From: Liolophura sinensis
Lineage: Eukaryota > Mollusca > Polyplacophora > Chitonida > Chitonidae
DNA length: 64,000 nucleotides
Direction of reading: 5' to 3'
Assembly: GCF_032854445.1 (NCBI RefSeq)
Contig: NC_088303.1
Span: 24,125,501-24,189,500 of the forward strand
Of this stretch, positions 26,201 to 57,000 are shown piece by piece. The position numbers and the translations under genes were made by a program. The notes beneath the pieces are model-generated. The model saw only the letters and a list, made by a program, of their open reading frames with translations, did no database searches and was not told the origin of the DNA. Position 1 is the first letter of the stretch, and each line of letters opens with the position of its first letter.

Positions 26201-29200
26201 ACCCATGACTAAATTGTATATTTTGCCACATTCTGAAAGTTCTGTTGGCCTTAAGAAGATGTTTTTTTGGGGGGAGTTGTTTTGAATGTAAGATGATATA
26301 CTTTTGGCCTGATGTAAGTGTCATCATATTTTTGACATTTAATTCCCTGTATAAATGCACTGTGTTAAGCAAAATTTAGATCATATTCCATAATTACATT
26401 AGACTAATTAACAGAGAGATCACAGTTTGGAATACTTATTCTGTTTGTTCATTTGTCGAGTTGTGTGGTTGTCTTTTTGGGTCTTATTAGAAATGGTAGT
26501 ATTTTGGATGGTGATGGGAACTTTTCTGTCTTGACTGTATATTGAAACATCTGACGCATCATGGATCTCAATGAGAAAAAAAAATTCTCTTGAATGGGAT
26601 GAAAGGCTTGCTTATATTTCACTCTTTCTGTAAGTATCTCCCTGTCCAATTTACATGTGGCTTCATAACGTTGTGCGCATTGTTTGCAGCAGGTCTTGAA
26701 AAGCTCTCAACTAATTGTCACAAAGAATGCATGCAAGCTACAAAGTTATATCTTCAGATTCAGCTTCCTTTACAATGGGGTACCGATAGGTAGCGGCGTG
26801 CTAGTGTGATATAGGACTTGCATTTCACAAGTCTTTTGTTGTGTGATGTGAAACATGTTGCGTGCTGCGGTGTCATCTGTGACGTCTTTGGTCTACCCAC
26901 TGTGATGTCATGCTGTTGACGCTGCAGTCGAATGTCCAGCATCGCTGAAATACGTGAAATATCCCAATTCGGACTTGCTGGTATCCCGTTCAATTATTTT
27001 CAATTTTATACCTTGTCCTTGCTTTTGTTTGTCCACTTTTTACGACTGCACTGCCCTTACCCTTATAAGGTGGACTAGAGGTATACTTAAGGTGTTTCTG
27101 AGGTGTATTGAAGATGTATTGAAGGTGTATCTGAAGTACTGCCAATTACACCAAGGTACAACAGAGGTATAGCTGAAGTACAGTCTTATAGGCAAGGTGG
27201 ATGTATACCAGTTTCACTTTTATTTTGATAGAAAACAAGCTCAAAACACTTAAATATAAATTATAGATAAATTTAAGTAAGTGCATGCTGTTCTTTGTTT
27301 ACAGTATCTGTAAACCTCAGCTGACTTACAACAACAACAGTTTACATGAGGCTTTCTAGGTGCTTGATCAAAATTTAGTGCTACTCCTTTTCTATGCCTC
27401 TCAGAACTGTCCATGTGCCCAAACATGTTACAAATTTTGTCCCAGGAAGCATGACTCAGTGCATAATTGGGTTGTTTTCCCACAACCTGGAATGTTTATG
27501 CGCCTTGTTCACGGCAGCCATCTTGGAATAATTAGGGGCAAATACTTCCATGCTCTGTGATTGTTAGATATTTGCACACTGAATAGCAAGTCACTGTAGG
27601 GTGAGATAAGAGCTTGTATTTATTTTGGTCTTCTTTTGCACTAAAATATTTGCAATTTTGTACTCACAATTTTGTTTGAATTAAAATGTAAATATGATCT
27701 CTTGTTTTAAAACTTTAAAAAAAAGTGGCTGAGGTACATGATCGCTTTACATGACACTAAATTATAATCAAAAACTCACAAAGTTTCTTAGGTGTACCTG
27801 AGGTATATCATTTACTTTTTTTAACCTTCAAAGTTGCTAAGGTGTACCTGGGGTATATCTTCTAAGTGTTGATTGTTTTCAAATTTCCTGAGGTGTATTT
27901 GAGGTACATTGTCTTGTGTTCAACAACTGCTCCAAAACTCGCAAAGTTTCTAAGGTGTACTGGAGGTACATCATTCATTTTTTTTGAAGTGCCACTCTGG
28001 GGAGAATACCAAATTGTGTAGAAATATTACAGTGATATGAAAGAAATCCTATGGAGTAAGCCTAAAACCATGTTTCAATATGATTTTGGTGAATAACACT
28101 ATTTAACCCATATAACTGAAGATTCCTTGAAAAACAAAATCTTTGGTTGTGCCCCGCCTAAAATTTCCCTGATGTGACGTGATAATATTCCCTGTATGAC
28201 GTAGGAGCAGGCAGATGTGACGTTGAGTAAGAAAGTTATGCTGGGATGACAACAAGGGCGTTTGAAAGGGCAGCGTCATTTGTGGATATACACTTTCAAA
28301 GTTTCTAGGGTTCACCCAAGGTACATCTTCTACTTACTTGAGGTACAGTACATCTCAGATAATATAGATAGGGTGTACACCTCATCTATACCTCACACCA
28401 AGGTGTACATGAGGCGTACACCCCATATACACTATATCTACAACCTCACATCTGTAAGGGGTACTTGTCCATGTGATGTCTTTCTTGGGTGACGTTGAAA
28501 CTTTTATTAGGTGTCAACTAGAACTGTATTCACCTTTCTGTTTCTAATCCGTACCTTTCAGACTCATAGCTTATTGATGGGTTCACCAAGCCGCAGCCTG
28601 CTTGCAGTTTTGTCAGCTAACATTAGCGTTTGCAATTTTATTGTTAATGTTTGCAGGACATTATGATGGCCCGTATGCGTTTCCTGATAAAGAGGGTAGC
28701 CTGGGTAACCTGCGAGTGAAGTGGGAAGAGGTGGAACATCTAGAGCTTAGTGTGGTGGAAAATCTCTCCACCAATCAGTACCTCATGTCAGAGTAAGAGT
28801 ATACATGTTGTCATTTTGTAATGGGGTGGAAAATCTCTCCACCAATCAGTACCTCATGTCAGAGTAAGAGCAAATATGTTGTCACTTTGTAATGAGGTGG
28901 AAAATCTCTCCACCAATCAGTACCTCGAGTAAGAGCAAACATGTTGTCACTTTGTAATGAGGTAGAATATGTGTGCACAAAACGGTACAAAATATCACAG
29001 AAGATCTTAAACATGTTGCCATATTATAGCGTGGTGGAAAATCTTTCAACAAACCGGTACACAATTTCAGAGTATTGAAGGCTTCATTTATTTTCAGTTT
29101 AAAGTGCATGGGGTCGAAAACTTGTCCACAAAACATGACAAGATTTCAGCGAAAATCTTTATCATGTTGTCACTTTGTAATGGAGTGGAAAATTTGTCCA

Positions 29201-32200
29201 CAAGCCACAACAAGATGTCAGAATATTAAAGGCTTCAGTTGTTGTCACTTTGTAATGCAGTAGAAAATCTCTTCACAAACCAGCACATGATATCAGGGTA
29301 AATTCTTCAAAATATTCTCGCGTTGTAGAGTGGTGGAAATATCAGCCCTTAGCTAGTCACATGATACGTAGGTGTTTTGAAAATGGTCTACCAAACTGAT
29401 TAAGGCCTTTAGTTAGGAGGTTTGTGGTATAATGTAACTGTAGAGGTGCAGTGGTTTCATCTGGGCCTCCATTCGGTTTTGTATGGACTTATCCAATGAA
29501 ATGGTCTTATGTTAAACAGCCACAAAGAAAAAGAATCAAATGCAAAGTGCAATACGAACAGACCATGCTTTTATATCAACAAAATGGATTTACCATTACA
29601 CAAACACCAACGGTTAGCCTAGTGTTTACATTCCGGGATGAGGTTTTGCACATTAAGGTGCATTGAGAAGAACATTGTAAATGTGAAACTTTGGAATTCT
29701 CTTGCTACATGTATATGTATATGAACGTTTTAGTGTTGAAAGCATTGCTTAATCCATGTGTGAAAAATCTGTTTGATGGTCGCCCAAGTTTCCTGCACGA
29801 TTAATGACACAAATGTAATACTGCATTTTTGGAAATTGTACACATTTTGTCATCTCTACCACCTTTGCAGTCATCCATATTTGTGACTGCAGTCTATACT
29901 TGCTTTCAAGTATGGACCCCGTACATCTGAACTTAATGATGGTGAAATGTTCATTTCTTTGTGAAAGAGACATAAGTACATGTACTAGGATTTTAATATA
30001 CATATGTGTACGTATTGATCTCATTACTCATATTTCAAACATGTGTAGATTTGATTAAGTGTAATCTCTAAGACAACTGTTCAAAATTCAATATACTTGG
30101 TTTATGCTTACTGCAGACAGATGAGGTAAGTGATAAATGTCAAGTTGTAATGTAGATTCATATCAGTTGTAGCATGTCAAACGTCATGTCACACAAGACT
30201 TCATTTCCATCTACCTGAATGCAGCTTGTTCTCACTCAGTAACATTTACATCTATTATTAATTTTTGAGTTGTTGTAAACCATGCTTTAGACTGGCTTTC
30301 ATTTCTCTATGTGCGTAGAGAATATAGACATTATAGTGTAGGTGATTTTATACAATTTCCTTTTAATATTTTTTTTTCTTTTTCTTTTCTTTAGTTGGAA
30401 TACCATGCTGAAAACTTAATTTTTTATTTTTAATGGCCTTATTATATTCATTTCTTTTTTTCATCGCCCTTGTTATTCATATTAGCGGAAGGGAAGAGGA
30501 ATCATCTAAATTGTCTAACGTGTTATGTACTGTGTATAATTTTGTTTGTTATTTATTTGATTGTTGTGGGCAGAGTCAAGAATTTTTACTTATACCATGG
30601 CAATCAGTAATCATAGCAATCAGTAATCATAGCAATCAGTAATCATAGCAATCAGTAGTCATACATCTGTGACAATCAGCCTGTAATTTTTTGAACTCTT
30701 CTTCACATCTTGTTTGTCTACTGATTTTGCCAATTGCATGCGAAGCGTGGCTGATGTGTAGATGTGGTTTGATTCTGTGTGAGTGTTCTTGAAGTCATAA
30801 AAAAATGTGTACATGCCTATAGTGTCACCAGTTAATACTGACATGATCAGTGAGTACACCAGATAGCTGGCAGGAGACTTTCTAAAGATGATATTATTTA
30901 TATATTTATTTCATTGAATTTTTTTTTCTGTATTCAAGAATATTTCACTTAGATGATATTTAATCCTTGTCATAATATATGAGACATTTCAGTTTATTTT
31001 CAGTATGTATGATTTTGCGTCATACCGAAGAATATTTTGTGCATTTTGAAGTTCTCCAGACTTGAGTAACATCGTCTGTTGTTCAGTCCTACCATTGTGA
31101 TAATGTTGGGGGGAATTGGTAACTTGCTACATTGAAAACACCTAGAATTTAATGGAAATTTTTACAACTACATGAAATTGCCCAGCTGCACAAATTGTAT
31201 TCAAGAAAAGTTGATTAGTTGTAAAGTTATGTTGACATGTGATTCACTGTTAATCACGTAAAATATCTTGTGATTGTTTACTGGCGTGATACAACAGGGC
31301 GATCAATCCGTGAAATTATAGGCTGTTTACTGCATGTACTCATACATTGCAAGGTAACAATGGTCAGTCCAGCATGGACTTAAGTCACCATTGTGCAATG
31401 GCAAAGTTCCCCATAGCTTCATATGACTGTCCCAAATACATGTATAGCATATGTCATTGTAGTGCCCAAATAGGGCCTCTGCGGAACCAGCATGTTACTT
31501 TGGAGAAGGTTTTAATAGTTGACTACTCGAAACCTGATGTTAATTGAAAAGAAAGTACATATATTCTTCACTATGTTCACAAGGTGTCAAGAAGTTGTTC
31601 TCATCAAATAATTTTTTGTGTGAAAAATGAATTGAATTATAACATTGCAAAAACTCATGTACATTATGTTTCCTTTTGTGTCTCTATTTGTTTTTTGGTG
31701 GGTTTTTTGCAGAGAGGAGCAGAAAGAGAAAGCAAGTCATGCAAAAAAACAGAGGATAAAGAGGATAGCCCTGATCAGCTTAGCCACTATTGGTGGAGGA
31801 ACGCTGATAGGTGAGATTTTATACTAGGTAAAGCTCATGGCCCAAATTACTCCAGCCATGTTTTAACAAGCATGCCTGATTATTTGTGGCAAGATAAAAT
31901 GAATTGATCAACTGATTGGAAATATCACCAGCCCTTTGTCATTATTACAATCAATGTTGTAAGTAATGATAAATAATGTTGCAAGTACCTGGATCTTTCA
32001 GTAATATAATTTAATGTGTTGGAAGTGATGGAAATAATCTTAATTGTGGTGGCAGGTTCCTCCGTGGCCTGGTGATTAGCATGCTAAAGCAGCACAGTAA
32101 CCCAGGAGCCTCTCACCAAAGCAGTTGTTGTGAGTTCCTCTGCAGTCGCACTTGGGAAAGATTGCAGGCAACCCACAATGCTGGCCACTGTTGTATAGGA

Positions 32201-35200
32201 GAAATGTTCTTGAGTACAGCATAAAACGCCATTGATATAAATAATAAAGAATAGTGGTGGAAATTGCAAATAATTAAACTAATACGTGTATCATATACCT
32301 CTTGGGCACATACTCTTCTCCCCAAGTGGACAGTTCATCAGTTGTCATGTTACAGAGTTTATGATACATGTATAAAATCCCAAATTCTCTGTGTTTCAGG
32401 TTTAACAGGTGGTTTAGCAGCACCCCTGGTGGCTGCAGGAGCTGGGGCGATCATAGGTGGCGCTGGTGCTGCTGCTCTAGGCTCTGTGGCTGGAGTGGCT
32501 GTGATTGGTTCCTTGTTTGGTGTGGCAGGAGCTGGGATTTGGCAGGTGTGTATTGACGTTTCATCTGTGTAGTGTTTTACAACATACACTAGCATTCACA
32601 CATAAACTCCTAATTTATAACAAATGCCATGTTGTTCGACACCAGCTTTGTTTGTACTCTTGGATTAAGAAAAATACTCAGAAATAGAAAGATCTAGTGT
32701 CCAACGTGGTTGCTAATTCGCACATAATCATGATATTATGCAGATCAAGCTTTGCCTTTTTATGCAATTATTCGGTAAATGCAAAACCTTAACCTAAATA
32801 CACTTTTTTCAGGGCAAAATTTGGTCTGGAAGTCAATTTAAGTGTTAAATATAGTGTCCACTTATAAGAAAACTTATACATTTAAGCACCACAGATGACT
32901 TATAAAAATAATTTATAATATTAGTACAGTGTTTGGCATGAACCTATATCATCTTGGGTCGTACTGTTATGATTTGCATTTCCACTAACACTAATAAACT
33001 TCATGGAGAATTGGAAAGCTTAACTTAGAAGCCATGTCCTGGGCCAGCTCACCATTTTACTGGCTTCAGTGAGTGAGAGTTACGCTAAAGATAGACCTTT
33101 CACTAATACATTGCGTGTATACTACATGCTGGTATATCCTCACCAGGCCTGCCTTACTAGGTAAGCAACCTGATGATACATTGTGTCATGTTTACATGCA
33201 GTTAGTGTGTAAACAAAGGCTGAAGTGTCATAAAATGGCCTAAACCAGATTACATGCACTAAACGATCAAGATCCGTGTAAGATGCGATCAGGATGTTGC
33301 CAAAATCCGTGCATGGGCGTCCATCATGGCCACATGATATGCATAGGATCCATAACCACATGGATCAAGATGCACGTAGGGTGGACAGATGATACACTTA
33401 GATTATATCAGTAGGATGGACAGTACTGTATACCCTCAAACATGAAAGTATTTTTACAAATGGTTGTTCAGGTATATCGTGTATCACATCTGGTTGTTTC
33501 AGGTATATCCCTAAACCTGACCGTATTTTTACACCTGGTTGTTTCAGGTATATCCTCAAACCTCACAGTATTTTTACACCTGGTTGTTTTCAGGTATATC
33601 CTCAAACCTCACAATATTTTTACACCTGGTTGTTCAGGTATATCGTGTATCACATCTGATTTTTTCAGGTATATCCCTAATCCTAACAGTATTTTTATGT
33701 ATGGTTGTTTCAGGCATATCCTGAACCGGATAGCATTTTTACGCCTGGTTGTTTCGGCATATCCTGCACCTGACTATATTTTTACAACTGGTTGTTTCAG
33801 GTATATCCTGAATCTGACTATATTTTTACACCTGGTTGTTTCAGGTATATCCTGAATCTGACAGTATTTTTATGCCTAGTTGTTTCATCTATATCCTGAA
33901 CTTTTGTCAGGTATATCCTCTGTCACATCTGGCTGTTTCAAAATATATCCTTAAACCCGACAGTATCTTTTATGCCTGGTTTCAGGTATATCCTCTGTCA
34001 AACCTGATAGTACTATAATGCTTGGCTGTTTCAGGGTATAAAATGAAGAAGAGAGTGGGAGCGGTGGAGGAATTTGAGTTTGAACCCCTCATCCATGGAG
34101 GTCCTCTTCAGTCTAAGGACACCCCATCTCGACAACTTCATATCACCATCGCAGTCACTGGCTGGCTGAATAAAGATATGAAAGGTTAGCATTACTTTGG
34201 ACCTCCTTCAGTTTTATCTATCACATATATTTAAGTGTTATCAAGTTAACTGTCTCATTATTATTTTATCTCATTTTATCTCTGTGTTTTCCTCATGGTT
34301 TTGCTTCAGTAATTATTACTGTTACTCAGGTAATTGAGTTAGGTTATGAAATCAAGCTTGGGAGTATACTAAAGTGATGTAATGGGCCAAGGAAGAACTA
34401 ATTTTGTTTAGGACAGATATGGGTTCATTCTAAAATAGATTGGCCCTTACCAGTTTTAATTGTTGTTTGACGGACACAATAATAAATCCGTTTCCAGTGA
34501 TAGAGGGTAAAAAAATTAACGCTTGAAAATCATCTGCTTCTTGAAATGTGGATAATCCTTTTTCCTATTGAAGAGACACCCTAAATGGCCAAGAATTTCA
34601 CTCACAAAAGTGCATTTTTATTTTAAGCAAATAAATGTCACAAAATATTATTTTTGGAGCTGCAACTTACAATTCTTCAGCAGAATATCCCATATGCCCA
34701 GCAAACCTCAAAACAGCTTTCTAATATCAGTAGAACTCTCAGAAAATCAGGGAAAATGGGCATATTAGTCATGGACGAGATTTATGGTCATTTAGGGTAT
34801 TTACACAATCAGAAAGCTTAGAAAAACAGGAAAATCAAAACATTTTCTGTTTTGTTTATTTTTTATTATTTTTTTCAGTTGTCTCACTCGTAAAATACCA
34901 GACATAATTTGGCCCTACTTAGCAACTTTACATGATATTTAGCATATAACTGTGTGCTATGGTTTCTGTTTGTTCTACTCATAAACATTATGTCTATCAT
35001 GAGTGTACTCAATAAGATTTCCTTGAGTACATGTGTTTGGGAAGAAGCGCTTTAAGTAAATAGTTAAACCAAATAAAACTGCTGTTTTGCTTGATCACTT
35101 CTGTTTTATTCTGATAGCATTGGCAAAACATGGTCTAAAATGCTGAGTATTTATAGAAATAGAGTGGTAGTAAGGATATAATTTGTAGAGTAGCATTAAT

Positions 35201-38200
35201 GGTATAATTTTATTAGCTACTAGTATTCAGCCTGTCAGTGAGCTATTGGTATTAAAAGACGTTAGACAAAAGAAAGCTCCAGTCAGTTTCTGCATGAATT
35301 TTTGACTGTGGCTGTCGTTGACCTGTCTTGAATGTTAATATGTGTACATGTATTTATCTTGCTGGCAGATGTGAGGAAGCCGTGGAAGTGTCTGATGAAT
35401 TCCAACGAGCAGTACTGCCTGCGGTATGAGACAGAGCACCTGCTAGCATTTGGCACAGCCTTTGATTATATTCTCAGTGTGGCCATGTCCATGGCAGTCC
35501 AGGAGTCCCTCAAATATACCGTTTTGTCAGGTATGACTGGATGTTCTCTGTGATGGTGTACAGTATTAAGAAAGTGGCTCAGCTTGACATTATTACATTT
35601 ACTTACACCCTTTCTTTTGGAATTTTAGATGAAATACAGTAATCAATGACTTTCATTATTGATGTGTCCTGTCTAGCCCCATGTACTATTCTCTGATCTA
35701 TTTTCACTTTCGTTTTGTCATGTCTGCTGCACCTTTAATGTGTGTGTGTTAATTTCTTGTGGTGCACATCAGGTATCTTGGCTGCAGTGGCTTGGCCAGC
35801 TGCCCTTGTGTCTGCTGCTAACGTGATTGATAACCCTTGGAGTGTATGTGTACAGAGGTCAGTGGGTGCAGGCAAGCAGCTTGCAGAAGTGCTGCTCGCA
35901 CGTGAGCAGGTAGGATGTGAATGCATTTCCTTCACAGCACAAGTTCACATACTTTCCTTAGTCACTTGAATGTGTTCAAATAAAGCTGTTACTGACATTC
36001 ATACAATATTTGTAATTGTCTCTGTTTCACTTACATGTTAAAACTTAAATCATGTTAAATGTACCATAATGTAACCAGAAATCAAATTTGATGAACGCCT
36101 GTGAAATCTTCATCTGTGCTGCCTTTTATCCAGATTTTATGCTGTGTTCAATAGGGCCACAGGCCAGTCACACTGATTGGATACAGTTTGGGTGCAAGAG
36201 TTATCTTCTCTTGTCTAGAGGAACTTTCCAACAGAAAAGGTAAAGAGAAGATGATCATGTGATCTGTGATATTCATCTGTATGATAAAACCATGCAAATT
36301 ATTTTTAAGAATTGACATAAACCTGATTGTGTATAATCATTAAAAAGTTTAAATTTATTAGTATAAATTTATGAGGAAATATATTCTGTTTATCCTTATT
36401 TATTGTGGGACCAAATATCACAGGTAGCACTTGGTCATCATTTTCTTGAGCAAAAGGTTAAGAACTTTGACTGATGTCTGGGCGTACATTTACGTGACAG
36501 CAGCTCATTGGAATCCTCCTGTCAGACAAAGCATTAGTAGGAATGAAATAGTATTGGAAGTTAGACTAAGCTTAAAACCTTCTGACATTACAACAAGATA
36601 AGACATCACAAAAATGTCCAAAGTGTAGTTAAGCTAATACGGTTTAAATTAGGTAAAATTAAAAACATGAAATTTTAAATCTCGTGAAAGATATTAAATT
36701 TTCAGTCTGTTACAAAAAATCGGAAAATGCTATCCCAGTTTTTGAGGAAGCTGTTATTAGCACACCTGAGAGTTTGCTGAATCTTCTATCGAAAAAAAGT
36801 TATTAGGGTGCATCTAAAGTGTCGCAAAAATTTGGTTTATCATAGTTTACTTATCAATAATGTTCTTGCTGACTTTGTTAATTTCTAATTTTATGCTCTT
36901 GGACAGAAGCTGGTACAAGGTTAAAACATTCCAGTAAGGAGGGGAAAACTAGGTATGAGATCAGGCAAAACATTTGAACTTTTTCATTTTTTGTTTTTCA
37001 GTTATATCTGGTTTCAGTTGTCTGGTGATGCTTGTTTCCATTGTTTGACAAAGTTCTCAACTAGCCCACTCTTTGTGTCATTGTTTCAGGGTGTGAGGGA
37101 ATTGTAGAGGATGTGATACTCTTGGGAGCTCCAGTAAGCGGAAGTTCTAAACACTGGGAACCATTTGGTAGAGTGGTTGCAGGAAAAATTGTCAATGGTT
37201 ACTGCAGGTGAGTCAGACTGTGAAACCAGGTGTAAATCCATGGATTAATCCCAGACATCACTGGCTTCAGTGGAACCTATCGCACTAGGGATCACAACCC
37301 TGTGAACATTATCCTTAGTAACTTAATTTAAGAAAGATAATTTTTAACCAAGTTAATGTAACGTATACTTCCCAGCCTAAAGTAATATACACACAAGCGA
37401 TAAAACTTTTGTTCATTGCACTGTTTGAGATGAAGTGATTAGTACTAATGTTTGAAAACTAAAAAGCTAAAAACTGCCTCGAAATAATCATAAATGTATG
37501 TATTTATCGCAAATTCCATTTTGTTGATGTTGTCTGCCATGGCAACAGGGGCAAACTTTTGCTTTTTGTACGAATTGCAAGCAGAGGGTCAACTTCGTTT
37601 TAACTGATTTTAATGACAGGGCATACACATGATAATTACTAACAGATTGGCCTTGGACATGGATTTTGTATATCACCGTGTTTGTGCGACTTTGGTGACA
37701 ATAAACGATCAAAGACGCTGGTTTGGCCATTTTCCATATTATCATTTGGCCAGATTAAACCTTCATTGAAGACTGCTCGTTTTCATGTGGAAACATAGCA
37801 TTCAAGTAAATAAACCACTAATTACTATAAATCTTCAGCGTTTTCAACCCCTAAGGCACTTTTTTCAGTGGAATTTATGAATACATCTACTACAAAAATG
37901 ACTCCAAACTTATTTGTTTGTGTCACTAAAGATGCAAGCTTCATAAAACTGTGCAAATTATTTCTCTACACAGCATAGTTCTCTTAGAATGTTTCAAAAG
38001 ATTGGTCATAGAGTAGGTTGAAAAGGTTAAAGAATTAGGGTACAGATGATGGGTTGGGGAAGTGCATATGTGATTATCTACATTGTTTAATCTGTTTCAG
38101 AGGAGACTGGTTACTGAAGTTCCTGTACAGGACTTCCTCAGTACAAATTAAAATTGCCGGTCTTCATCCAGTGCGATGGGAAGACAGACGCATGTGTAAC

Positions 38201-39030: not shown

Positions 39031-39137
39031 GCAGAACTGGAGCTCTACAGGAGAAAACCGACAGGTGTATTAAGTATATAAAAACGGGACTAGCTGAGGA
39101 AAAATTGTGAAGGTAAATGTTAGTGTAACAAATTATT

Positions 39138-39143
39138 AATAAA
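39138..39143 (+). terminator. TMCO4: Candidate poly(A) signal of TMCO4
   Basis: AATAAA 108 nt after the TMCO4 stop codon. Further hexamers occur downstream, so a longer 3' UTR is possible. Confidence 0.4.
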
Positions 39144-39149
39144 TCGTAC

Positions 39150-42530: not shown

Positions 42531-42536
42531 TCTGGA

Positions 42537-43215: not shown

Positions 43216-43238
43216 CACTGGGTACAACTTAGTAGTCC

Positions 43239-46200
43239 TCATACTTTGGTAAAATAGTGTTCCCAGTCTGTGACCTCTGCTTCGTTGTTCGACACCCAGG
43301 GAACGGGATCGGCGATGAGTTCGCATGTCTTCTCCGCAGCTGTCGTCTGGTGGAGATTGAAAGACGTGCAAGGTCTGTATTTCTGACACAAAATGAAGCA
43401 ATGGAGAACTGAGGAGACCCGGAACACCCCAAGTGATGGATTGAGAGACCGCTTGCTTGGCCGATAAATTATCTCAAACACCCTCTCTGAAAACCGAAAG
43501 GCCATACTGTTTTGTAAGGGTATACTAAGGCAAAACTTGAGAAAAGAAATTTAAGATGTATAACGCTTGGCAAGAGGAAATGAAATGCACTCATGTTGTC
43601 ATCAGACACAGCGAATCAAACACTGCCTTATCAGATGCAGCGAGCGTAACACGGTTATGAGATGTACCAAATGGTATAACAACTGAACTGCAATCCTGTA
43701 GTCGGAAAATGTAACTGAACATTCCTGTCAAGAGAGGAATCAAGTACGACAAATCGAATTCGAAAATATAACGATTTCAACAATGTTGTAAAGACAATGA
43801 GAAATACACTCGACTGCTGTTACCGGTATGCAATGGAATTGTATGTTGGAATTGTTTGTTACGGAGCTATGTTGATATCACGAGATACAATAAGTACAAC
43901 AATGTTGTTGGAATTGTCTGTTACGTTACTACGGTGTTTTTATCATGAGATAATTTTGTTGGAATTTTCTGTTACGGTGCTACGGTGGTGTCACGAGAAA
44001 CAATAAGTACAACACAGTTGTTGGAATTTTCTGTTACGGTACTACGATGGTTTCACGAGATTTAATAAGAACAACACTGTTGTTGGAATAGTCTGTTACC
44101 GCGATATAATAATAGACACAATGATATAGTAATAGGAGATACAATAAGAAAAAAGCTGTTGTGAAGATTTACCAGCACAACACTGGCACACTGTGAATTG
44201 TCTGCTTTATGTTTCTTATACGCACACTGGAGACGTTCCTCCCACCAGCAACTCAAACTGACATATAGATGGTTCAGATGCCTCAAATATTTAGTGCAAT
44301 GTACGTAATTTTATTTTATTTATTTATTCGGTTTTTATTTGATGCCACATTCAAGAACATTTCACTTATACGACGGCGGTCAGCATTACGGTGGGAAGAA
44401 ACCGGGCAGAACTGGTAGGAAGCCCACGACCGTAATTTGAATATATATACTCGTGCATATACCATATCTCCAGAAAGATACTTATCTATCCGGATAAGTT
44501 ACACCTGTAACAATGCAATTAAGTTAGATCTGAACAACATCTGTTGTCTCTCTCGCCTTTGATTGAGTAACATATATTAGGCCCTAGTTACCAAATGAGT
44601 TTAACGAAAAGAAGTATGGTATTGTAGTAATTGTTTCAAACGCTGACTGACCCAGCAAATCTTGCCACTCACCCATGTCCGTAGCATATACCGCCAGCTC
44701 GCAGAAGTACAGCGGGTGGATGTTGTCTGTGGCGTGTATCATTACTCTGACGTATCTTCCCATGACATCTACAGGACAACCGTACGACTCTGTTGTGCTC
44801 GACGCCTGCGCAGTCGTGCGGTAATGGCAGAGAACTGGCCTGATCAGAACACCATTGTGTGGGCCGCCTTCCATATATGACGATATGTCTATGGTAAAGT
44901 TTCGCAGTTCTTGGGCGACTGGAAGCAGAAGATCATGTATGCTCTAACTGGTGAAACTGAACATGTTTCTTAACTCAGTGTTTTTTGTTCACGTTTACCT
45001 TTCTTGCCATCTTGTCATAATAACGTTAAAGAGATAGTTTAGTTAATTTAGCAAATCTTCTGACTTTTGAATCTCCCGATGACAACCTGCGACCGGATAT
45101 ATTTCAATATTCCTGTGTTTTCTAATCGTGAGCCCAGCTGTCAATAATTAGATAAATGAAAGGAGGCATAGATAGGTACATACATGTAGATCACACTTTT
45201 AGAAACTCCAATGAACAGGATACGACAATTAAATGAGAACAAGGAACGCTGTTGTGATTCGAACCGAGAACACAGCGTGTTTCCATCTGACATTATTAAT
45301 AACAAATATTTATGCTCATATGTATAAGTATGCATATGCTCATTTGATAACGACCTGAAAAAATTAATATAATTATATGTAATAATAACATAATTTATTT
45401 CATTTCACATTTCATATAATCACGGGCAGGCGTCATAAACTAGAATACATAAATCAATTATATCTCCATCATAAGTTTGTGTCGATGTATATATACATTT
45501 TTACATCATAATGATAATGATGCTTGTAAATCTATAAGAAATAATACACATGTAGTTGTGTATTAGTATGATGACGTATTAGTATGATGACGTCTGTATT
45601 TCTCATAAGCCAAGATGCATGAACGATTCTTCACAGCTAGAGAGGCCCTACAGTCTAAGCCCAACGTTTTGAAGGCTTCAAACGTTTATGTAGCAAACGT
45701 TTCATTCACGGTACTTACGCTTGCCGTTAATCTGTGGGTTCCCAAACTTGTGTATGAATTTGGGTTAAACTTACCAAAGTCTGCGCTGGTGATTTCCACG
45801 TGACTAATGAGATGTAGACTTCTCAGATCCACCACCCACCAAGGATTCCACTCTTCCTCAGTGTGCATACAAGAACCCTGTGTATACGCCGTGTCTTTAT
45901 TCCCATCAACTGCTCTCCATGCGTCCCCATTATGTCGCTCGTTGCTGTTCTTCTGGTAACTGTAAACTGAGCTCTGATAGGACGGCTTGCCAAGAGCCAC
46001 GTTGTTAAAATTCTTGCCTGTAATTTTCATCATACATGTATGTAAACCCTTGGCCCAAAGAACACATCAAAAACGTACCATAAAACGTATGAATATAAGT
46101 AAATTAAAGAAAGATGAGACAAACAAAAACAGATTTTTTTACATTTTTAAGGCATATTTTATAATACTTCTTGCCAAACGCTCAGTTTTATGCATATTTT

Positions 46201-47426
46201 GTGTTAATCGTCCAAAATATTCGATGAATCGATGAATATATTGGGAAGGTGGGACTAGCTTAGCGCTCCTAATTCTGACTCTCCCTCATCCCCGCACATA
46301 CCCTGGGCATAGCCTCTTCTCTGACCTACAATTCAGTCTGGGTGCGTGTTATATACGGCTTAAAATTGCACCCAAGTATACGTTTTGCTAACATGTCGTA
46401 TATAGACATCTCAAGTTGACTATACTGGAACACTCCCTCTTTATATCATTCACTTTGAGTGTATGTTGCATACACTTTTGTCTACATCAGGTATTACACC
46501 TCAAATCTGTGGCCTAGTGATGGAGTGCTAGCGCAGCACAGTGACACAGAACCCTCTCACCATTGTGGTCTCTGTGAGTTCAATCAAGCTCATTTGGCTT
46601 TTTCTCTGGTCCCACGTGTGAAGGCCTTGCAGCAACCCGCGGATGGTCGTTGGATTTCCTCGGTTTTCTACCACCATAATGCTGACCGCCGTCGTTTAAG
46701 TGAAATATTCTTGAGTACAGTGTATGACTCCAAACAAATAAATAACTAAATAAATCTGAGTATACTCCCACATTAGCCTAAAGTTTTAAATACTCGATGT
46801 TTAATTGTGTCTAAATTGCTGGGTTACTAAACCCAGAACGCAGTATATTACCTGCTGGGATGTTTATTAAAATATCATAAAAATTGATCAACATATTTTT
46901 TATTTAGTCCTTGATGGGTTCTCTTACCTGATGGTCATTTACCAGATTTAGAGATTACTAAAATTCAAAGAATACGATATTCCACACAGGCGTCTTGTGA
47001 GTCATTAACCCTTAAGACATTCACCTAAGAACATTTTCATGAAAATTTTTTGTGTATAAAGGTGGTTTAACAAAACGAACACGCTGTCGATTTCACCTTG
47101 AAAGCATCTTATACACGGCATTTTTTATACTGGCCTGCCTGAAATCAAATCTTGCTGCATCACACATCCTGCAACACGTTCATTCTATTTGGTTTGCTCT
47201 AGCCATAATCTTTACCTAACGGTGAGACAATTGTGAGCAAGGCTTATAGGAACCATCATATCATAGCTGAATGAAAATGAAAGTAACATATATACATTTT
47301 AAAAAATATTGTCGACTTACGCCTTGCCATAAGACCGTTTTGAAAGTATTTGTACAAGGGTGTTATCTTACCAGTAATTCCAAGAGCTGTGGCCACAGAC
47401 AGCATTATTGCTATCATAAAAGCCAT
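43239..47426 (-). CDS. Secreted F-type lectin (fucolectin)-like protein
   Basis: A small secreted F5/8-type-C-like lectin of the fucolectin/tachylectin-4 group, which usually binds fucose in innate immunity. Exons: 47426-47372, 46017-45775, 44918-44673 and probably 43339-43239; 214 aa in total. Exon 1 is a signal peptide (MAFMIAIMLSVATALG). Exon 2 has NVALGKPSYQSS, AVDGNKDT, SCMHT (His70, the conserved sugar-binding position) and NPWWVVDL. Exon 3 has CPVDVMGRYVRV and LYFCELAVYA, the usual end of the fold. The typical RGDCCGER loop with the binding arginines is absent: after VEIT the sequence reads SADFVAQELRNFTI. Exons 1-3 are well supported. Exon 4 (starts AAEKTCELIADPVPW, ends HYFTKV) fits in phase using the acceptor at 43340 but is less sure. 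Reading through exon 3 would instead stop at 44584. Confidence 0.8.
43800..44110. repeat. Tandem repeat, about 60-bp unit, in lectin intron 3
   Basis: Units like 'ttgttggaattgtctgttac', 'ggtgctacggtggtgtcacg', 'agatacaataagtacaac', about five copies, all diverged. Lies between exons 3 and 4 of the F-type lectin gene. Confidence 0.85.
44320..44425 (-). mobile_element. SINE fragment, group A
   Basis: Begins with an ATTT tail, then 'cattcaagaacatttcactt', 'atacgacggcggtcagcatt' and 'ggtgggaagaaaccgggcag'. The head is missing. Confidence 0.85.
46498..46755 (+). mobile_element. SINE copy, group A
   Basis: Head 'ctgtggcctagtgatggagt', 'gctagcgcagcacagtgac', B-box-like 'ctgtgagttcaatcaag', body 'accaccataatgctgaccgc', tail 'caaacaaataaataactaaa'. 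Lies in intron 1 of the F-type lectin gene. Confidence 0.88.
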
Positions 47427-47429
47427 GGT

Positions 47430-49098
47430 CTCACTCTTTTTCACAGCCAGAGAAACTAAAACAAATCTGCAGCTAGGATTCTTGATCAAGGCAAAGACTC
47501 TTCGATATCCGAATTTTAGTGTTTTATCATTTTATCCAGTGGTAAATTTCAAACTCCAAGCAGAATTCATATTGATTTAGCTGAAATATGACCAATAAAT
47601 GGAAAGGTATAAACTTCTTGTCAGTGTACCGGTATCGGGTGAAACAAAGAAATGGTCCCACCACGCAGTGCTGTTCCAGCATTAACAATTATAGAAGATA
47701 ATATACATAATTATATAGGCTTAGAATTTCCTAAGCACATACATGAAAACTGAAAGCGAATTATTTTGCATTAGAAACTTGGGAACGCTACAATTTTATT
47801 TCATCATACCAGATGACCTAAGCAGATGAATAATGACTTTGTTAACACAACCCCACGGTACCCGCTGTTGTCAAGGAAGAAGTTTCCTATTGTATCCCTG
47901 TATAGCAATCACTGTTATTCCAAGTCAAATAAGTCGATATGGCTAAGAGAATGGACACATTCAAACTGCATGTGATATTCTCGTAACACACACGTTCTCG
48001 CAGCAGATGATTGAGCGGATTACACCAATAAAAATAGTCCTTAGAGGCAATAAAAATGATAATTGTAAAGAACCATCCCTTTTCCCGAAATTAATCTATT
48101 TCAAATAATGCAGACTTTAGATGGGAGCTTTCGATTACGAGTGAAAGCATTTAGGGAGGACCTTGTCTAAAGATGTACACAAATTAAAAGACGAATGTCC
48201 TAATGTAAAGTTTCTGTTTTTGTCGATTGTTGTCTAACTGGTAAAGGTTAAGATCTGTCCCCTTCTATGGAATGCACAGAGAACTCATACTATATGGACT
48301 ATACATGACGCTGAAACTTTGATAATAGTACAGAAGCTCTTCATATTAGACGATCTATGTCGGACTACTTCTGTGTGAGCTGTTGTTCAACCAACTGGGC
48401 ATGTGACATAGAGAAAAACATGTAAAAAAAAACGTTTGAATGTACAGGTTACTTGCCCTGTGGCCATACACCAGGTGGCGAGGTAGACTATTCATCTATA
48501 AATAGTCATGGGTTGTGTTAAGTGGCCAGTCTAATAATGCCCTTAGGCTTTGTCCAGTGTTTAATGTATCCTGGATTTTTACTCTTAACCCTAAAACACG
48601 TTTTACGTGAATTCGATTCTGATTCGATCAGTCTGATAGACCCATGTGGTCACGTCAGGCCTGATGATGGCCAGTCTACCGATGCATACATATGTACATG
48701 TCGATTTCAGGAACTTGTACCGGTATAGTTGAATTGCTAACGCAAACCCCATAGCCGAGAGTAAGCTTTTCGTGAGATTGCTTCTCTGTGAATGCAAACT
48801 ATCTTGATTGGACAAGAGGGCTTTTTTTCTTCTTCCTTACCTCACAACTGAAAAAGTCACAGCTGCTACAGTCAGGAAATTACAGGCAGTAAATCTTGAA
48901 CAGCAAATCACTATAGGCTACAATCCTTTGCTGATTAGCAATGGCATAAAACCATGCAAACTTGTTTTGTTTCAGTCATTACCCGGAATGTATTAAGATT
49001 TACAGAATACTGAATTAAATAGACTACAATGGACACCTGAAATACTTTCCACTGATAAATCTTGAAAATAGCTCTGCAACGTAAAAGAACAATGATGA
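47430..49098. other. Intergenic stretch, lectin promoter side and GMC upstream
   Basis: Upstream of the F-type lectin (minus) and of the GMC gene (plus), so it should hold the lectin promoter. No exon was recognised. An open frame at 48522-48728 has no known domain. Confidence 0.4.
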
Positions 49099-49114
49099 CG
49101 CAATAAAACATCAT

Positions 49115-49378
49115 TTATTTATTTATTTGATTGGTGTTTTACGCCTTACTCAAGAATATTTCACTTATACGACGGCGGCCAGCATTGTGGTGGGTGGAAA
49201 CCGGGCAGAGCCTGCGGGAAACCCACGACCATCCGCAGGTTGCTAGCAGACCTTCCCACGTACGGCCGGAGAGGAAGCCATCATGAGCTGGACTTGAACT
49301 CACAGCGACCGCATTGGTGAGAGACTACTGGGTCACTGCACTGCGCTAGCGCGCTAACCAACTGAGCCACGGAGGCCC
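49115..49378 (-). mobile_element. SINE, group A, complete with target-site duplication
   Basis: On the minus strand: head 'ggcctccgtggctcagttgg' and 'ttagcgcgctagcgcag' (A-box), 'gctgtgagttcaagtcc' (B-box), body 'ctctccggccgtacgtggga' and 'caatgctggccgccgtcgta', tail (aaat)n. It is flanked by 16-bp direct repeats, 'cgcaataaaacatcat' (49099-49114) and 'cgcaataaaatatcat' (49379-49394), differing at one base. This proves a retrotransposed insertion and defines the element as about 264 bp. Confidence 0.95.
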
Positions 49379-49720
49379 CGCAATAAAATATCATCTCGCA
49401 ACGCACAAACAGTCCTTAGAGTTATGATAATGTCTTCACGAGGTCGAAAGGTCAACTGTTTCAGTTGTTGGTTGAAATGTAAAGTAAGCGTAGGAAATTC
49501 ATCCAAGCATTCTCTAATCTTTAAGATAATGGACTCCCTTGGCTTCAGAGCCTGTGATCGCCGCAGGCAACAGGCAGAAACCACAGGCTATTTTTAATTA
49601 AAGACTGATTCAAATTTTTGTTCAAGTAGCAGTGTACTTATATCTACTACAATACACAGGTCACAGCTTCAGACCTTGGGCTATCTGAACATTAAGAAGT
49701 CATCAGAACATTAAGACAAG

Positions 49721-50825
49721 ATGGAGAGGACGGTCACTGAAGAGGAGATGCTGCCCGTCTACGACTACGTTATTGGTAGGTAAATGTTCACTCCTTTGTC
49801 GCCTTGTAAGGTAACGATATTTAAAGTTGCTAATATCAAAGAATAACTCCTACAATACCGTGGAATTATCTCAACGACCAAATTCCGGTCTTTAATCATA
49901 TATGCTCGTTACATTTACTGGGTTTAATAGTTATCTGCCTGTGGTTATACAACAGGGTAGGTCGTTAAAATTTTCCAAATGTTTTACTCTGTATAAATTT
50001 AACTTCAAATTTGTAATTTGCCTATGTCAGTTGCATCTATCAAGGCATACTAACTTTAAATGGTTAAACGATGAATTGATTGATTTTTGTTCAACGCCAC
50101 ACTCAATTATTTTCTATTTACTAGTATGCGACTTGTCAGGATTGCCCGGGGCTAAACCACTGACCTTTGGCAAGTTACTGCCAAACTTATATCAACACCC
50201 ATATATCAACACTTTTGTTTTTCCAATTTGAAGGCCTTTACGGAAGCCTAATATTGCTTAAAATAGTAATTCATGAACAATAAAAAGTATGGCTTCATAG
50301 AAAAGAAACATTGCAACAATGTATAAGATCCATCCAGTGCTTGCAACCTTTTAAACTTCCTGACACTCATTGGCCTCTTATCATTGTCTTATCGTGGTTA
50401 TCATTTATCATATACTTCCTCATTATCGCACAACTGAACCATTTTGTTGTTTGGAGAGGGGATAACATTCATATAAACAAAGAAGTAAAATGGTTCCAAT
50501 GTTTCTACAGTTGGAGGAGGTTCGTGTGGTTGTGTGTTGGCCGCCCGATTGGCCTCGGCTTCAGACCGAACTGTGCTATTACTTGAGGCTGGCGGAGATG
50601 ACCGAAAAATACCAGAGATCCCCGTGCCTGGATCAGCTCGTCTTCTTCAACTGACTGATTGTGACTGGCAGTACAAAGCCGTGGCCCAACAAAATGCATT
50701 CAAAGCATTTAAAGATCAGGTAGTTTATACTTCCGTGCTAAGTTTGAATATTTGTCCACAGATAGCGTGTAGAAAGAATGCTATGTGTTAACCTTGTAAA
50801 GTATGTGAATGAGGTTTTTTTTATC

Positions 50826-50856
<31 letters not shown>

Positions 50857-51022
50857 GATTGTTGTTTGACCAGGCAGTCAAGAATATTTCACTTATACGA
50901 CGGTGGCCAGTATTATGGTGTGAGAAAACCGGCCAGAGCTCGGGGGAAACCGACAACCATCCACAGATTCCTGGCAGACCTTCCCACGTACGGTCGGAGA
51001 GGAAGCCAGCATGAGCAGGAGT

Positions 51023-51065
<43 letters not shown>

Positions 51066-54000
51066 GGGAATCTGTGATTTATTTATTTATTTATTGTCGT
51101 TGTTTAATGTTTTTACTTACGATTTGCTTTCTAGACAGACTGTTTGTGAGACATGTTCCAGTCGTCTAAATGGCCTATTTACATGAAGGGATAATTCATT
51201 GTAACACCTAAAGTTGGTATTTTACCTTTACTCTACATTCGATCAGCTCTCTCAATAAAACCCGATCATGACAGATATATATGTAAACCAATATCGATTT
51301 AAAATTGGGAATACATTTGTCGGAGCTATGAATCCTTTTGTCCATAATATTGTCAGTTTATTCCTGTTGATCAGGTGTTCAATATTCCCCGGGGTAAGGT
51401 TCTGGGTGGGTCGGGGTCTATAAACTACATGATCTATATGAGAGGTACCCCTCACGACTACGACATCTGGAAGAATATGGGATGCCCAGGTTGGGGCTAT
51501 GACGATGTGCTACCTTACTTCATGAAGTCGGAGAGATGTCTCATTAACAGGCGGGTGGACAAAGGTGAGGGTATTAAGTGTTTATCATGTAAACATTTCA
51601 CCAAATGAGTTTTAATAAGGGCAAAACTGTACTTTAAAAGTTCGAATTTTTATGTTGGATTATCATTACGCTCCAGACGGGATCAATGTGATGACCGAAA
51701 TTTGCAGACGAAATCTCCGGATGAAATCTCTCAAACATCAGTTAATATCGCTAAATTCGGAATGCCGATTTCTGAAACCAAATTAATCTCGCTCGCCATT
51801 GTGTTTGTAATGGCTGGTAAGGCTATGGAGTACAATTTGTCATTAAATTAGGAATGTTCAGTGATATACATATAGGCCTACACATATACTTACAGGCTAT
51901 AGAGGAACCGATGGCCCGATGATGATTTCTGAAACCAAAGTAACTCCACTCGCCAATGTGTTTTTGGAAGCTGGCAAGGCTATGGGTTACAAGGAAACGG
52001 ATTGCAATGGGCCGGATCCCATAGGTATAACAACCAGCAATGATGTGTAACGCTGGTTACTTTTATAATGGCCTAATTTTTTTTATAATTGGTAACCTGC
52101 CATTTTATTTCTTTGTCTCGTTTCATTTTTATTTTATAAAGGTTGTCTGTAAAGAAGGCTTGACCTAACGTCTAATACACTGCAGTTAGCCTCACTGCAT
52201 TTCTTTATCTAATTTTGACTAAGCCATGGTGTTATGAGGATGTAAATTATGCAAGTATTTACATGAACAGTTAAAATAAAAACCTAAGTGAAGTAAATTG
52301 ACAATAGGTGGATTTCACTGTGGTACGTGTGATCATTTACCAACTGTCACAGTGTCGTCATAGTTCGGGATTACTCTATATAGTGAAGTCTTGATATCTA
52401 ACTCAGCACTTGACCTGAATACATGCTGTGTTCTGGTGATCTTAGGACTAAATACATGATGGTGGTGAGATGATCTTTCTCAGGACTAAATACATGATCC
52501 CATAGAATAATCTTTCTGAGGGCTAAAAATGGTGTGGTGAGGTGATCTTCGTCAGGGCTTAATACATAATATGGTACCATGATACCTGTATTTCTTAGGG
52601 CTAAAAATGATGTGGCGAGGTGATCTTCGTCAGGGCTAAATACATGATATGGCACCATGATACATGTATTTCTGAGGGCTAGAAATGATATGGTATCATG
52701 ATACATGTGATTCTGAGGGCTAAAAATGATGTGGCGAGGTGATCTTTCACACAACTCCATACATGGTGTGGTACCATGATCTTTCAATCCTGGGTCAAGT
52801 CACACCTAAGACCTTAAAAGAGGAAGTTGCAGCTTTCTCGCTTGGCGTTTAGCGACTGGTTGGCCCGTATCAGTATAATGGCTCGGACGGTGGGGCTTAC
52901 TTACCTTCGGTATGCCGTCTCAGTGAAGTAGCACTATATAAAAGAGCGGTGGAAATCCGTCCTGCAACAAGGAGGCACATTACATGCACTCTAAGGATTC
53001 CTTCGTCGTCAAATGACTGAAAAATTGTTAAGTACGACGTTAAGCCCCGATCACACACTCACTCACTCAAGACTGAATACGTGGCTGTTTTCAACTATTG
53101 CAGGATTCATGTTGGTTCAGTCCAACATCGCTGATGGTGTTCGACAGAGCTCCAGTGAGGCGTACTTGAGACCCGTAATGAAGCGGGAGAACCTGCACGT
53201 GGCCCTAAATTGTCACGTGACCAAGGTGCGTTCGTTGTCTGAACAACCACAGTTTCGGATTCCTGTTTCGTATTATCGTACTTTTCTAAAGGAATGGTGC
53301 CTTTGCCTGACTCGAGAATATCTGACTTAAATGCTGGCAAAGTTTAGAGATGAAGGAAACAATGAGAGAAATAATATATTAATTGGATGAAAAAACAAGC
53401 TTTAATAAAGCGTGTATGACGTTCTCTTTTCTGTAAGGAGAAAAAAAGAAGGAAAAATATCTTGATCGAACACAATGTGTGCTTGATTTCAGGTGATCAT
53501 GCAACCCCTTGACCTCGTAAGAAGTAGTTTTGGGTTATTGGGTTTCGCCCCGTTATTACATTTAACGTTTCGTGTCTTTTATTACAGGTATTGATTGATA
53601 AACAGGTAGCTCGCGCTGTGGAGTTTGTGCGTGGATCATCCAGAAAGAAAAGGCAGACAGTGCGAGCCCGTCAGGAAATCCTGCTCTGTGGCGGGACGAT
53701 TGGCTCGGCTCATCTGCTAATGCTGTCCGGCATTGGACCTGCCCATCATCTCAAGTCAGTAGGGGTGAGCTGTTTTCTGTGTCTACATATATGCTTTCAA
53801 TGAGAATTTAAAATGTCATAGAATGAATCGGCATTTTCCCTTTTTTAAAACAATAAAGGTCAGAAGTTGTTTGCACAGCGTGCTTTGGTGCTCTATGAAA
53901 ACTCTGTTAAATATGCCTACCCGTAGGCTATTTTAACCATATCTGACAAACTAGAGTTCTTTGTGATTCATTCTTGTCGATCTTTTTCATTTTACAAAAC

Positions 54001-57000
54001 AAAGACAAATGTTATCCTAAAACGGATAAACCACCGGGATAAAATCCTTCATATTTTATTTCCTTTTCATTTTCTTATTCCTACCGATCGCACAACCGGG
54101 AAACACCAATAATTCTGACGAAGAATAACTCAAGGAAGAAAATTATTATTCTCTGTTTATTTCTTTTGGAATTTGGACGAAGAATTGAAAAGAGCATAAA
54201 ATAATACCTTGTGCAAAACTAAAAACTATTTAAGCCACAACAGAAACAAAACTCTGGTCACTTAAGATAATCTAATATGCCAGATAATTAACGGGCTAAT
54301 TCTGAGCTTAAAGTTAGGCCTGACAGACGGACACGAAAGTAAACACATTTTAGGTGCATTGTTTCTTTAAATCCAGGGAGCACTCTCTTTTCTTTTACCA
54401 GTACAGCTATTCATTGATAATGGTATTTGCTACTTTAGTTGCAAACTCAAGGAGAACGCGTATTTAATGACACACGAATACAGCGAAAACTGTTAACAAA
54501 TGAAAGGAAATTTGAACATGATGATTAGTGTAGAACAACACTAAAATCAATGGAATATTCTCTTTTTTTCCCCTGTACAGCCGATGAACGGCTTGTAGAT
54601 TGAGAGACAACTCGCATACCACTGGTATTAAACATAGCGTAAGTAAGGTGGACATTTTCATCGCTATTGTGTGTATATGTGGTTGCCCATTTGTTATTCA
54701 CAATACAAATAACCTCCATTTTCATGGGCATTGGGCAAGACTACGATTATATGGACGTGTGCTGATTTGTGCCTATAGATTGACGTGGTTGCCGATTTGC
54801 CGGTTGGAGACAACCTTCAAGACCATAGTGGCACGTTTGGAATCGAGTTCCAAATTGATGAGCCTATTTCTGTGTTACCTGAAGACTTGGCCTGCCAGGA
54901 GAGACGAGACCTTTATGAGAAATTGAGGACAGGTGAGTATGAGATTATGAGTATCATCTAGCTTATGAGATCAAGGCATCTACACAATATTCTCCCACTA
55001 AGGAGATCATTATGAGTAGTTGACAGGTGAGTGTAGCGTCTTACTGGGGAGATCAAGGTCTCTACACAATATCCTCCCACCAAGGGAATCGTTATGAGAA
55101 GCTGGGGATAGGTGAGTATGGCGTCTAGCTGAGGAGATCAAGACTTCTACCCACCAATATCCTCCTACCCAGGAGATCGTCATAAGAGGTTGACAGGTGA
55201 ATATGGCATCTAGCTTATGAGATCATGGCATTTACACAATATCCTCCCACGAAGGAGATCGTTATGATAGGTTGACGGGTGAGTATGGCGTAGCTAAGGA
55301 GATCAATGCATCTACACAATATCTTCCCACCAAGGACATCAGTATGAGACACCGAGGACAGGTGAGTGTGGCGTCTAGCTGAGAAGATCAAGGCATCTAC
55401 ACAATATCCTCCCACCAAGGAGACCAGTATGAGAAGCTGAGGATAAGTGAGTATGGCGTCAAACTGAGGCGATCAAGGCATCTACATAATATCCTCCCAC
55501 CAAGGAGACCAGTATGAGAAGTTGAGGACAGGTGAGTATGGCGTCTAGCTGAGGATATCAAGACATCTACATAATACTAGTATCCTGCCACCAAGTAAAT
55601 CGTTATGAGACACCGAGGACAGGTGAGTGTGGCGTCTAGCTGAGAAGATCAAGGCATCTACACAATATCCTTCCACCAAGGAGATCAGTAGGAGAAGTTG
55701 AGGACAGGTGAGTGTGGCGTCAAACTGAGGCGGTCAAGGCATCTACATAATATCCTCCCACCAAGGAGACCAGTATGAGAAGTTGAGGACAGGTGAGTAT
55801 GGCGTCTAGCTGAGGAGGTCAAGGCATGTACACAATATCCTCTCATCAAGGAGATCCATATGGGAAGTTGAGGACAGGTGAGCATGGCATCAAGCTTGAG
55901 GAGATCAACGTATCAACACAATATCTTGGTACCAAGGAGATTTTTATCAGAAGCTGAGGACAGGTGAGTTTGGTGTCTAGTTGAGGAGATCAACGCATCC
56001 ACACAATATCTTCCCGTCAATGAAATCGTTATGAGAAACCGAGGACAGGTGAGCACGACGGCTACTGAGGAGATCAAGGTATCTGCACAATCACGTTGGG
56101 GATAGCCTCAGGCAGGTAGTACGAAGAATTAATTTTCCAAAGCCAAAACTGGTATCTCAAATATAAGTATGTAAAAGATATATATTTTAAAACGCCTCCT
56201 ATCGGCATACTATACTGTTTACTACTCCTTTATAGATTGGTGTTTTACGCCATTTGGTTGGTGTTTTACGCCGAACTAAGAATATTTGACTTATACGACG
56301 GCGGCCAGCATCCTGATGAGAGAAAACTGGGCAGAGCAAATCGCGTGGCAGAGCTTCCTACGTACAACAGGAGAAGATGCCAGCTTAAGCTTTATTTGCC
56401 GAATTTTCGAACATTAAAATCAAATCAATATTATAAAATCAATATTTATGTAATTTATGTTTTAGTAAGTATTTTATATCTTGACTGATATCTGAAATGG
56501 GTTCCAAAATTATTTCAATATATATATATAATGGAGCAGCACAAAAAATGTAAAACCATTTGATTATTTACCCTATGTGGACATCTAGGTGTTTTACGGA
56601 TACACTATCTGTTTGTTCCTCGGTGAAGCCGATAGAGCTTCCCAAATTCACAAAAACTGGGACAATATTTGACACAGTAGACTCACCATCTTTTCTAGGT
56701 CATCTAGCTACGAATGTGTATGACGCCATTGGCCTGATCCGGAGCGAGGTCCAAGATCCGGGCAATCCCAATCCGGACATTTGTCTGACAAGTCTCTGCT
56801 CATTGTACGGTGCCGGTCACGGGACTGCATTCAAAGCCGCCACTGGCATGCGCAATGAGGTAGGTAAAACTCACGCATATGCATTTTAAATATGTCATTA
56901 ACATTTAACGCCATACTCAATAAGATGGCGGTCAATTTTATGATTGGTGCAAACCGCATGGCTTGTATTGAACCACCGTTCCTTTGCACTTCACTGACCA

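Follow-up and report, generated by a model that had tools for sequence, protein, structure and literature searches.

Exon-edge minisatellites in two genes of Liolophura sinensis and their recurrence across the genome

Minisatellites at exon edges have previously been known mainly from single genes of amphioxus. These exon-intron boundary minisatellites, termed mirages, occur in Adh3 and the globin genes BflGb6 and BflGb9 (PMC3087553) and in troponin C and PGBD5 (PMC3902484). Both reports say that they leave splicing undisturbed. De Grassi and Ciccarelli 2009 (PMC2812944) describe internal tandem repeats of human genes, with minisatellite expansion, at exon-intron boundaries. The results presented here concern a 64-kb window of the mollusc Liolophura sinensis (contig NC_088303.1; the window is the whole stretch analysed), in which a DUF726 gene and a GMC oxidoreductase gene contain tandem arrays built from an exon edge and its splice site. 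Because unrelated genes elsewhere in the genome show the same pattern, it is general to this genome rather than a coincidence of one window. The arrays themselves are far beyond chance, and no clear excess at exon borders is established. They are probably ordinary minisatellites that began with a unit lying, by chance, across an exon-intron border.

Exon-edge arrays in the window and elsewhere in the genome

Tandem Repeats Finder (TRF) returned 32 rows in the window, and three arrays touch mapped exon borders. Exons 4–7 of the first gene, when assembled, match PF05277 (DUF726; E 1.6e-28); this gene is presumably TMCO4. The assembled protein of the second gene matches PF00732 (4.4e-46) and PF05199 (3.7e-32), as a GMC oxidoreductase, and solved enzymes related to it were found. 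The exons and arrays concerned are listed below, with a slash marking the border within a splice site.

28657–28792, + strand: TMCO4 (DUF726 family) exon 4, with GT-AG borders; donor AGA/GTAAGAG at 28793
28754–29302, + strand: donor-type tandem array, unit 71 bp, from TMCO4 exon 4 into the intron (TRF and copy alignment)
33428–34034, + strand: tandem array of ~45-bp units up to the TMCO4 exon 7 acceptor (TRF and consensus scan)
34035–34184, + strand: TMCO4 exon 7; acceptor at 34034/34035, with ~6–7 nt common with the array units
54779–54932, + strand: GMC exon e6 (exon 7 in the original numbering); donor ACAG/GTGAGT at 54933
54906–56091, + strand: donor-type tandem array, 85 bp x 13.4, with approximately the last 27 nt of GMC e6 (TRF and alignment)

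The original prediction held that three arrays start inside a coding exon and carry its splice site into the intron, and both donor cases are borne out. At TMCO4 exon 4, the TRF row (71 bp x 3.1, 28754–28967) begins within the exon, 38 bp from its end at 28792, and takes the donor into the intron. Six copies were aligned beyond the authentic one, with GT retained in 3/6; the outer copies are weaker or decayed and are traceable to about 29301. At GMC e6 the TRF span is 54957–56091 and the exon ends at 54932, the similarity of the intronic copies reaching at most the last 27 nt of the exon. All 13 aligned intronic copies retain GT. A genome search with this array matched only the array itself, which therefore does not appear to be a dispersed element, although the search skips very common words and is no proof.

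The acceptor case stands in part. The array does reach the TMCO4 exon 7 acceptor, but it abuts the exon rather than starts in it, because its units share only ~6–7 nt with the exon. TRF rows cover 33428–33901, and a consensus scan gave 14 units, to 33993. Most of the ~45-bp units hold the acceptor-like core TTTCAG, and TCAG is retained in 11 of the 14 scanned units as read by eye from the letters. The value of 0/5 for AG that this array received in the copy-conservation alignment is an artefact of a one-base alignment shift.

Separately, TMCO4 exon 6 (32400–32545, strong donor CAG/GTGTGT) and exon 7 (34035–34184) join out of frame, and the conserved GYKM reading requires one extra base at the junction. 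The frame would be recovered with a weak GT at 32550; the alternative is a one-base difference beside the array.

The pattern was sought elsewhere in the assembly, which comprises 609 Mb in 632 contigs; the contigs sampled are 25–96 Mb long. Sample 1 consisted of 36 segments (236,736 bases) around exons of the CCT/TCP1, myosin and kinesin families, and sample 2 of 60 further exons with 280-bp flanks. PF00501, with few multi-exon genes, was left out. Exon-edge arrays, recognized by eye in both samples, were present in 12 of the 36 segments, which hold 14 in total. Ten are donor-type (L001, L007 with two, L008, L010 with two, L013, L015, L034 and L035) and four are acceptor-type (L009, L014, L027 and L030). 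The short segments of sample 2 added four more, three at donors (L061, L087, L088) and one at an acceptor (L070), for a total of 18 further arrays in 96 segments. Both kinds of boundary are hit, donors in 10 + 3 cases and acceptors in 4 + 1.

These arrays lie in unrelated genes (CCT-like, myosin, kinesin), each with its own unit. Some units take in between 9 and 100-odd nt from the end or the start of an exon, together with the splice site, and the extra copies are on the intron side. The clearest case is a CCT-like gene (L001), in which ~92 nt of exon end with AAG/GTGAGT are repeated with a period of 109 bp and up to full identity, in six aligned copies past the authentic site. A second CCT-like gene has two more exon-edge arrays, and the arrays of the myosin and kinesin genes include both donor and acceptor types. 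The genes affected include core ones such as CCT subunits, and the genome is very rich in gene-specific intron minisatellites. About 4% of sampled exon borders bear an exon-edge array, a frequency that would let the growth of introns, the competition between splice sites and the origin of introns by tandem duplication be studied in many genes at once. Exons predicted within such arrays may be copies, a warning for annotation.

The GMC gene also contains repeats that carry no exon edge:

51762–51835, + strand: partial copy from within GMC exon e3 (exon 4 in the original numbering), in the upstream intron; local alignment score 84, maximum 34 in 300 shuffles
52440–52735, + strand: intron-only minisatellite, for comparison (TRF)
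58147–58192, + strand: partial copy from within GMC exon e8 (exon 9 in the original numbering), in the downstream intron; local alignment score 64, maximum 31 in 300 shuffles
59268–60128, + strand: intron-only minisatellite, 123 bp x 7 with 97% matches, for comparison (TRF)

The two partial copies had been grouped with the splice-site arrays as decayed copies. They are real and significant, but they are exon-interior fragments without a splice site. Several arrays in the window, such as the two intron-only minisatellites above, touch no mapped border; the one at 59268–60128 ends 58 bp upstream of GMC exon e9, which starts at 60186. Across the TMCO4 and GMC genes, 29 of 125 intron positions lie in local repeats. 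A dispersed recurrent element of the TTATACGACGGCGGCCAGCAT type, which we take to be SINE-like, is found at 2561–2640, 50870–51015, 56270–56330 and 57690–57870 of the window.

Other observations were made in the sampled genes and beyond. A myosin gene contains a 65-bp minisatellite of 52 copies with 96% matches, 3.4 kb long (L010:4667–8052, oriented). In L008, three similar consecutive myosin exons (profile positions ~95–135) at ~192–1390, oriented, are probably mutually exclusive. A haemocyanin gene at G000:C8:37880506–37891931 has eight matches in a row to PF14830, the haemocyanin beta-sandwich domain, within ~11.5 kb; multi-unit haemocyanin genes built in this way are molluscan.

Array coverage near contig ends and at exon borders

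Arrays are concentrated towards contig ends. In sample 1, arrays make up 26% of the length of segments lying at most 10 Mb from a contig end versus 4.7% of those farther in (15 versus 21 segments; Mann-Whitney P 0.00025), and across all 36 segments coverage declines as the end becomes more distant (Spearman -0.55, P 0.0006). The short segments, an independent sample, agree, with an array in 19/43 within 10 Mb of an end versus 1/17 beyond (Fisher P 0.005). On contig C1, tandem pairs of a donor decamer (described below) are listed at 18 loci, of which 12 are no more than 10 Mb from an end, against 21% expected from length alone. The bias was measured on 96 gene segments and this one decamer, with gene density uncontrolled. 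The high array density near contig ends suggests that recombination drives the birth or expansion of arrays.

The check proposed with the original prediction, whether arrays overlap exon borders more often than random intron positions, was run on the sampled segments. Borders were predicted from Pfam matches of three conserved families and from splice-site scoring; the two intron sets numbered 58 and 86 (union 101). Some array-bearing borders missed by the automatic step were added by eye only (L013, L015). In a first count, local repeats were present at 5/116 borders versus 41/424 random intron positions at the same threshold. In a larger count the values were 13/304 borders (8/139 donors, 5/165 acceptors) versus 306/1607 intron positions, with 4/144 for exon midpoints. 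The ratio of border to intron coverage is 0.22, and a bootstrap over loci gives 0.12–0.40. Two of the 13 border hits are doubtful: the one in L008 (1294) looks like duplication of mutually exclusive exons, and the one in L024 (4536) is probably not a genuine border; 11/302 remain without them. Coverage also climbs with depth into the intron: it is 5/101 at donors, 2/101 at acceptors and 10/76 at a depth of 200 bp. This test is biased against a border excess because arrays grow only into the intron.

The common mechanism that had been suggested for these arrays, such as slippage or repair at exon-intron borders, fares unevenly in the light of these results. The pattern does recur genome-wide in unrelated genes, but a seat at exon-intron borders is unsupported, as coverage is lower there.

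Origin and possible function of the arrays

If the arrays are ordinary minisatellites, as seems probable, local tandem duplication would arise at random by replication slippage or unequal exchange. A duplication inside an exon would usually be purged by selection. One that crosses a border could be tolerated because the splice site adjoining the exon body still works, and the copies beyond it would count as intron. The array would then be free to expand, contract and decay as intron sequence, with its birth or expansion possibly driven by recombination. Coverage that falls from intron to border to exon midpoint, and rises into the intron, is as expected if arrays are born at random and selection removes those that damage exons. 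There is no clear need for a special exon-edge mechanism. Most likely the extra splice sites are by-products that are seldom or never used.

Several points weigh against this reading: the placement of individual arrays, the pairing of a donor decamer, the donor columns of the GMC array, and the fact that we infer both the tolerance and the non-use of copies. The first two bear on the idea that exon borders are preferred birthplaces, owing to composition, to transcription-linked breaks or to a donor-like motif that promotes slippage. The 101 introns for which both borders are known contain 18 arrays, of which 7 straddle a border versus 1.5 expected if units were placed at random (P 0.0006). The donor decamer ACAGGTGAGT forms 502 tandem pairs at 40–70 bp spacing genome-wide and its reversed control 60, with 4303 and 1252 single sites, respectively. 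This corresponds to 11.7 versus 4.8 pairs per hundred sites, a 2.4-fold difference, and 7 of the 60 control pairs (C1 at 92.96 Mb) themselves sit in a donor array. Donor-type arrays also outnumber acceptor-type arrays, by 10 to 4, in sample 1.

The placement excess shrinks under correction. With one merged array split by hand (18 becoming 19), the expectation for sample 1 rises to 1.8 when intron growth is considered, to 2.6 by locus and to 2.5–3.5 by GC content (P 0.0008–0.040). Under a stricter null, in which arrays are moved only within their own introns, 3.6 are expected versus the 7 observed (P 0.039). L001, one of the 7, had been noticed before its segment was chosen. Sample 2 alone, for which the score limit was looser and the arrays were assessed by eye, is not significant, with 4/22 straddling versus 1.8–2.6 expected (P 0.10–0.24, the value 0.10 belonging to 1.8). 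Both samples together give 11/41 straddling versus 3.7–6.1 expected, P 0.0015–0.047 depending on the null. The GC content is 41.7% in border 60-mers, 36.1% in non-array intron 60-mers and 43.0% in intron-only arrays. GC weighting lifts the expectation 1.48-fold and locus stratification lifts it more, leaving a joint P of 0.047.

Any border preference would be two- to three-fold at most, part of it due to composition, and overall it is weak at best. The placement test rests on 41 arrays. It points to an excess per array and the coverage test to a deficit, and neither is preferred over the other. Preferred birth at exon borders is rather unlikely. It is likewise doubtful that minisatellites are founded at borders two to three times as often as in matched sequence, which would give this mollusc thousands of exon-edge arrays concentrated towards chromosome ends. 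Were such a preference real, the genome would hold a standing, recombination-fed stock of duplicated splice sites for new introns and splice forms.

The arrays could also be functional and preserved by selection, their extra donors and acceptors serving as decoys or as a source of alternative splicing. GT or AG is retained in 165/181 aligned copies from 17 arrays. In the GMC array (54933–56091), identity to the authentic site is 0.97 in the donor columns versus 0.81 in the rest of the unit, in which respect this array is unlike the average. Across the 17 arrays, the splice site is higher than the rest of the unit in 12 but shows no excess conservation (Wilcoxon P 0.33; the L013 border was placed one base off in this count). 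The amphioxus cases of the same build are reported as harmless to splicing (PMC3087553, PMC3902484). In a myosin array (L010:2784–3324, oriented) GTCAGT or GTCACT stands in most of the 17 intronic copies in place of the authentic donor GTGAGT, which would make them weakened decoys. Several units have lengths that are not multiples of three (85, 71, 109, 31, 82, 121 and 73), so that splicing at a copy would frequently cause a frameshift, and the CCT-like exon, when read on into the next copies, meets stop codons immediately. Maintenance by selection is accordingly improbable.

Intron gain by tandem duplication was reportedly described by Rogers in 1989 and by Zhuo et al. in 2007, and it is very improbable that the repeats are traces of recent intron creation of this Rogers type (exon duplication with AGGT) or of mobile introns. 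The units do hold exon ends and splice sites, the raw material of such a model, and PMC3087553 proposes it for the amphioxus globins. The GMC introns need not be new, however; the exons flanking the introns with repeats join in frame in one continuous Pfam match, and the GMC array was found once in the genome, in a search that skips very common words, unlike a mobile intron family. An assembly artefact is more improbable still. Tandem repeats are hard to assemble and copy numbers may be off, but the contigs are chromosome-sized, the divergence of copies is graded from near identity to strong decay, and the pattern is repeated in many genes. Ordinary minisatellites founded by chance across a border remain the probable source of the arrays.

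Relation to known systems

A literature search with mollusc terms returned no title on exon-edge arrays in molluscs among the matches listed. This kind of array is already known, and, as far as those matches go, its frequency in a mollusc seems to be new.

According to PMC3087553 and PMC3902484, amphioxus mirages are tandem units of tens to ~160 bp that span the boundary, at both 5' and 3' boundaries, with many copies that have intact AG or GT. The arrays described here are alike in these respects. Their units span the boundary at TMCO4 exon 4, at GMC e6 and in the 18 further arrays, and marginally at TMCO4 exon 7; donor and acceptor boundaries are both represented, and many copies keep AG or GT. 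Unlike the mirages, they occur in a mollusc, with 18 further examples in 96 segments, and are known from the sequence of one assembly, whereas splicing and length polymorphism were examined in amphioxus. The human case (PMC2812944) involves duplicated paralogues with RNA-supported altered splicing and novel introns, whereas the present evidence is genomic.

Intron gain by tandem duplication, also reported for potato RdRp (PMC4974935), likewise involves duplicated sequence with splice sites. It creates a new intron, whereas here an existing intron grows. Mobile introns (introners) place the same sequence in many unrelated introns, which the GMC array does not do in a search that skips very common words. 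Human minisatellites show a subtelomeric excess towards chromosome ends, and the excess near contig ends is similar, seen here in a mollusc from gene segments and a decamer. This genome is an unusually rich case of the phenomenon described in amphioxus.

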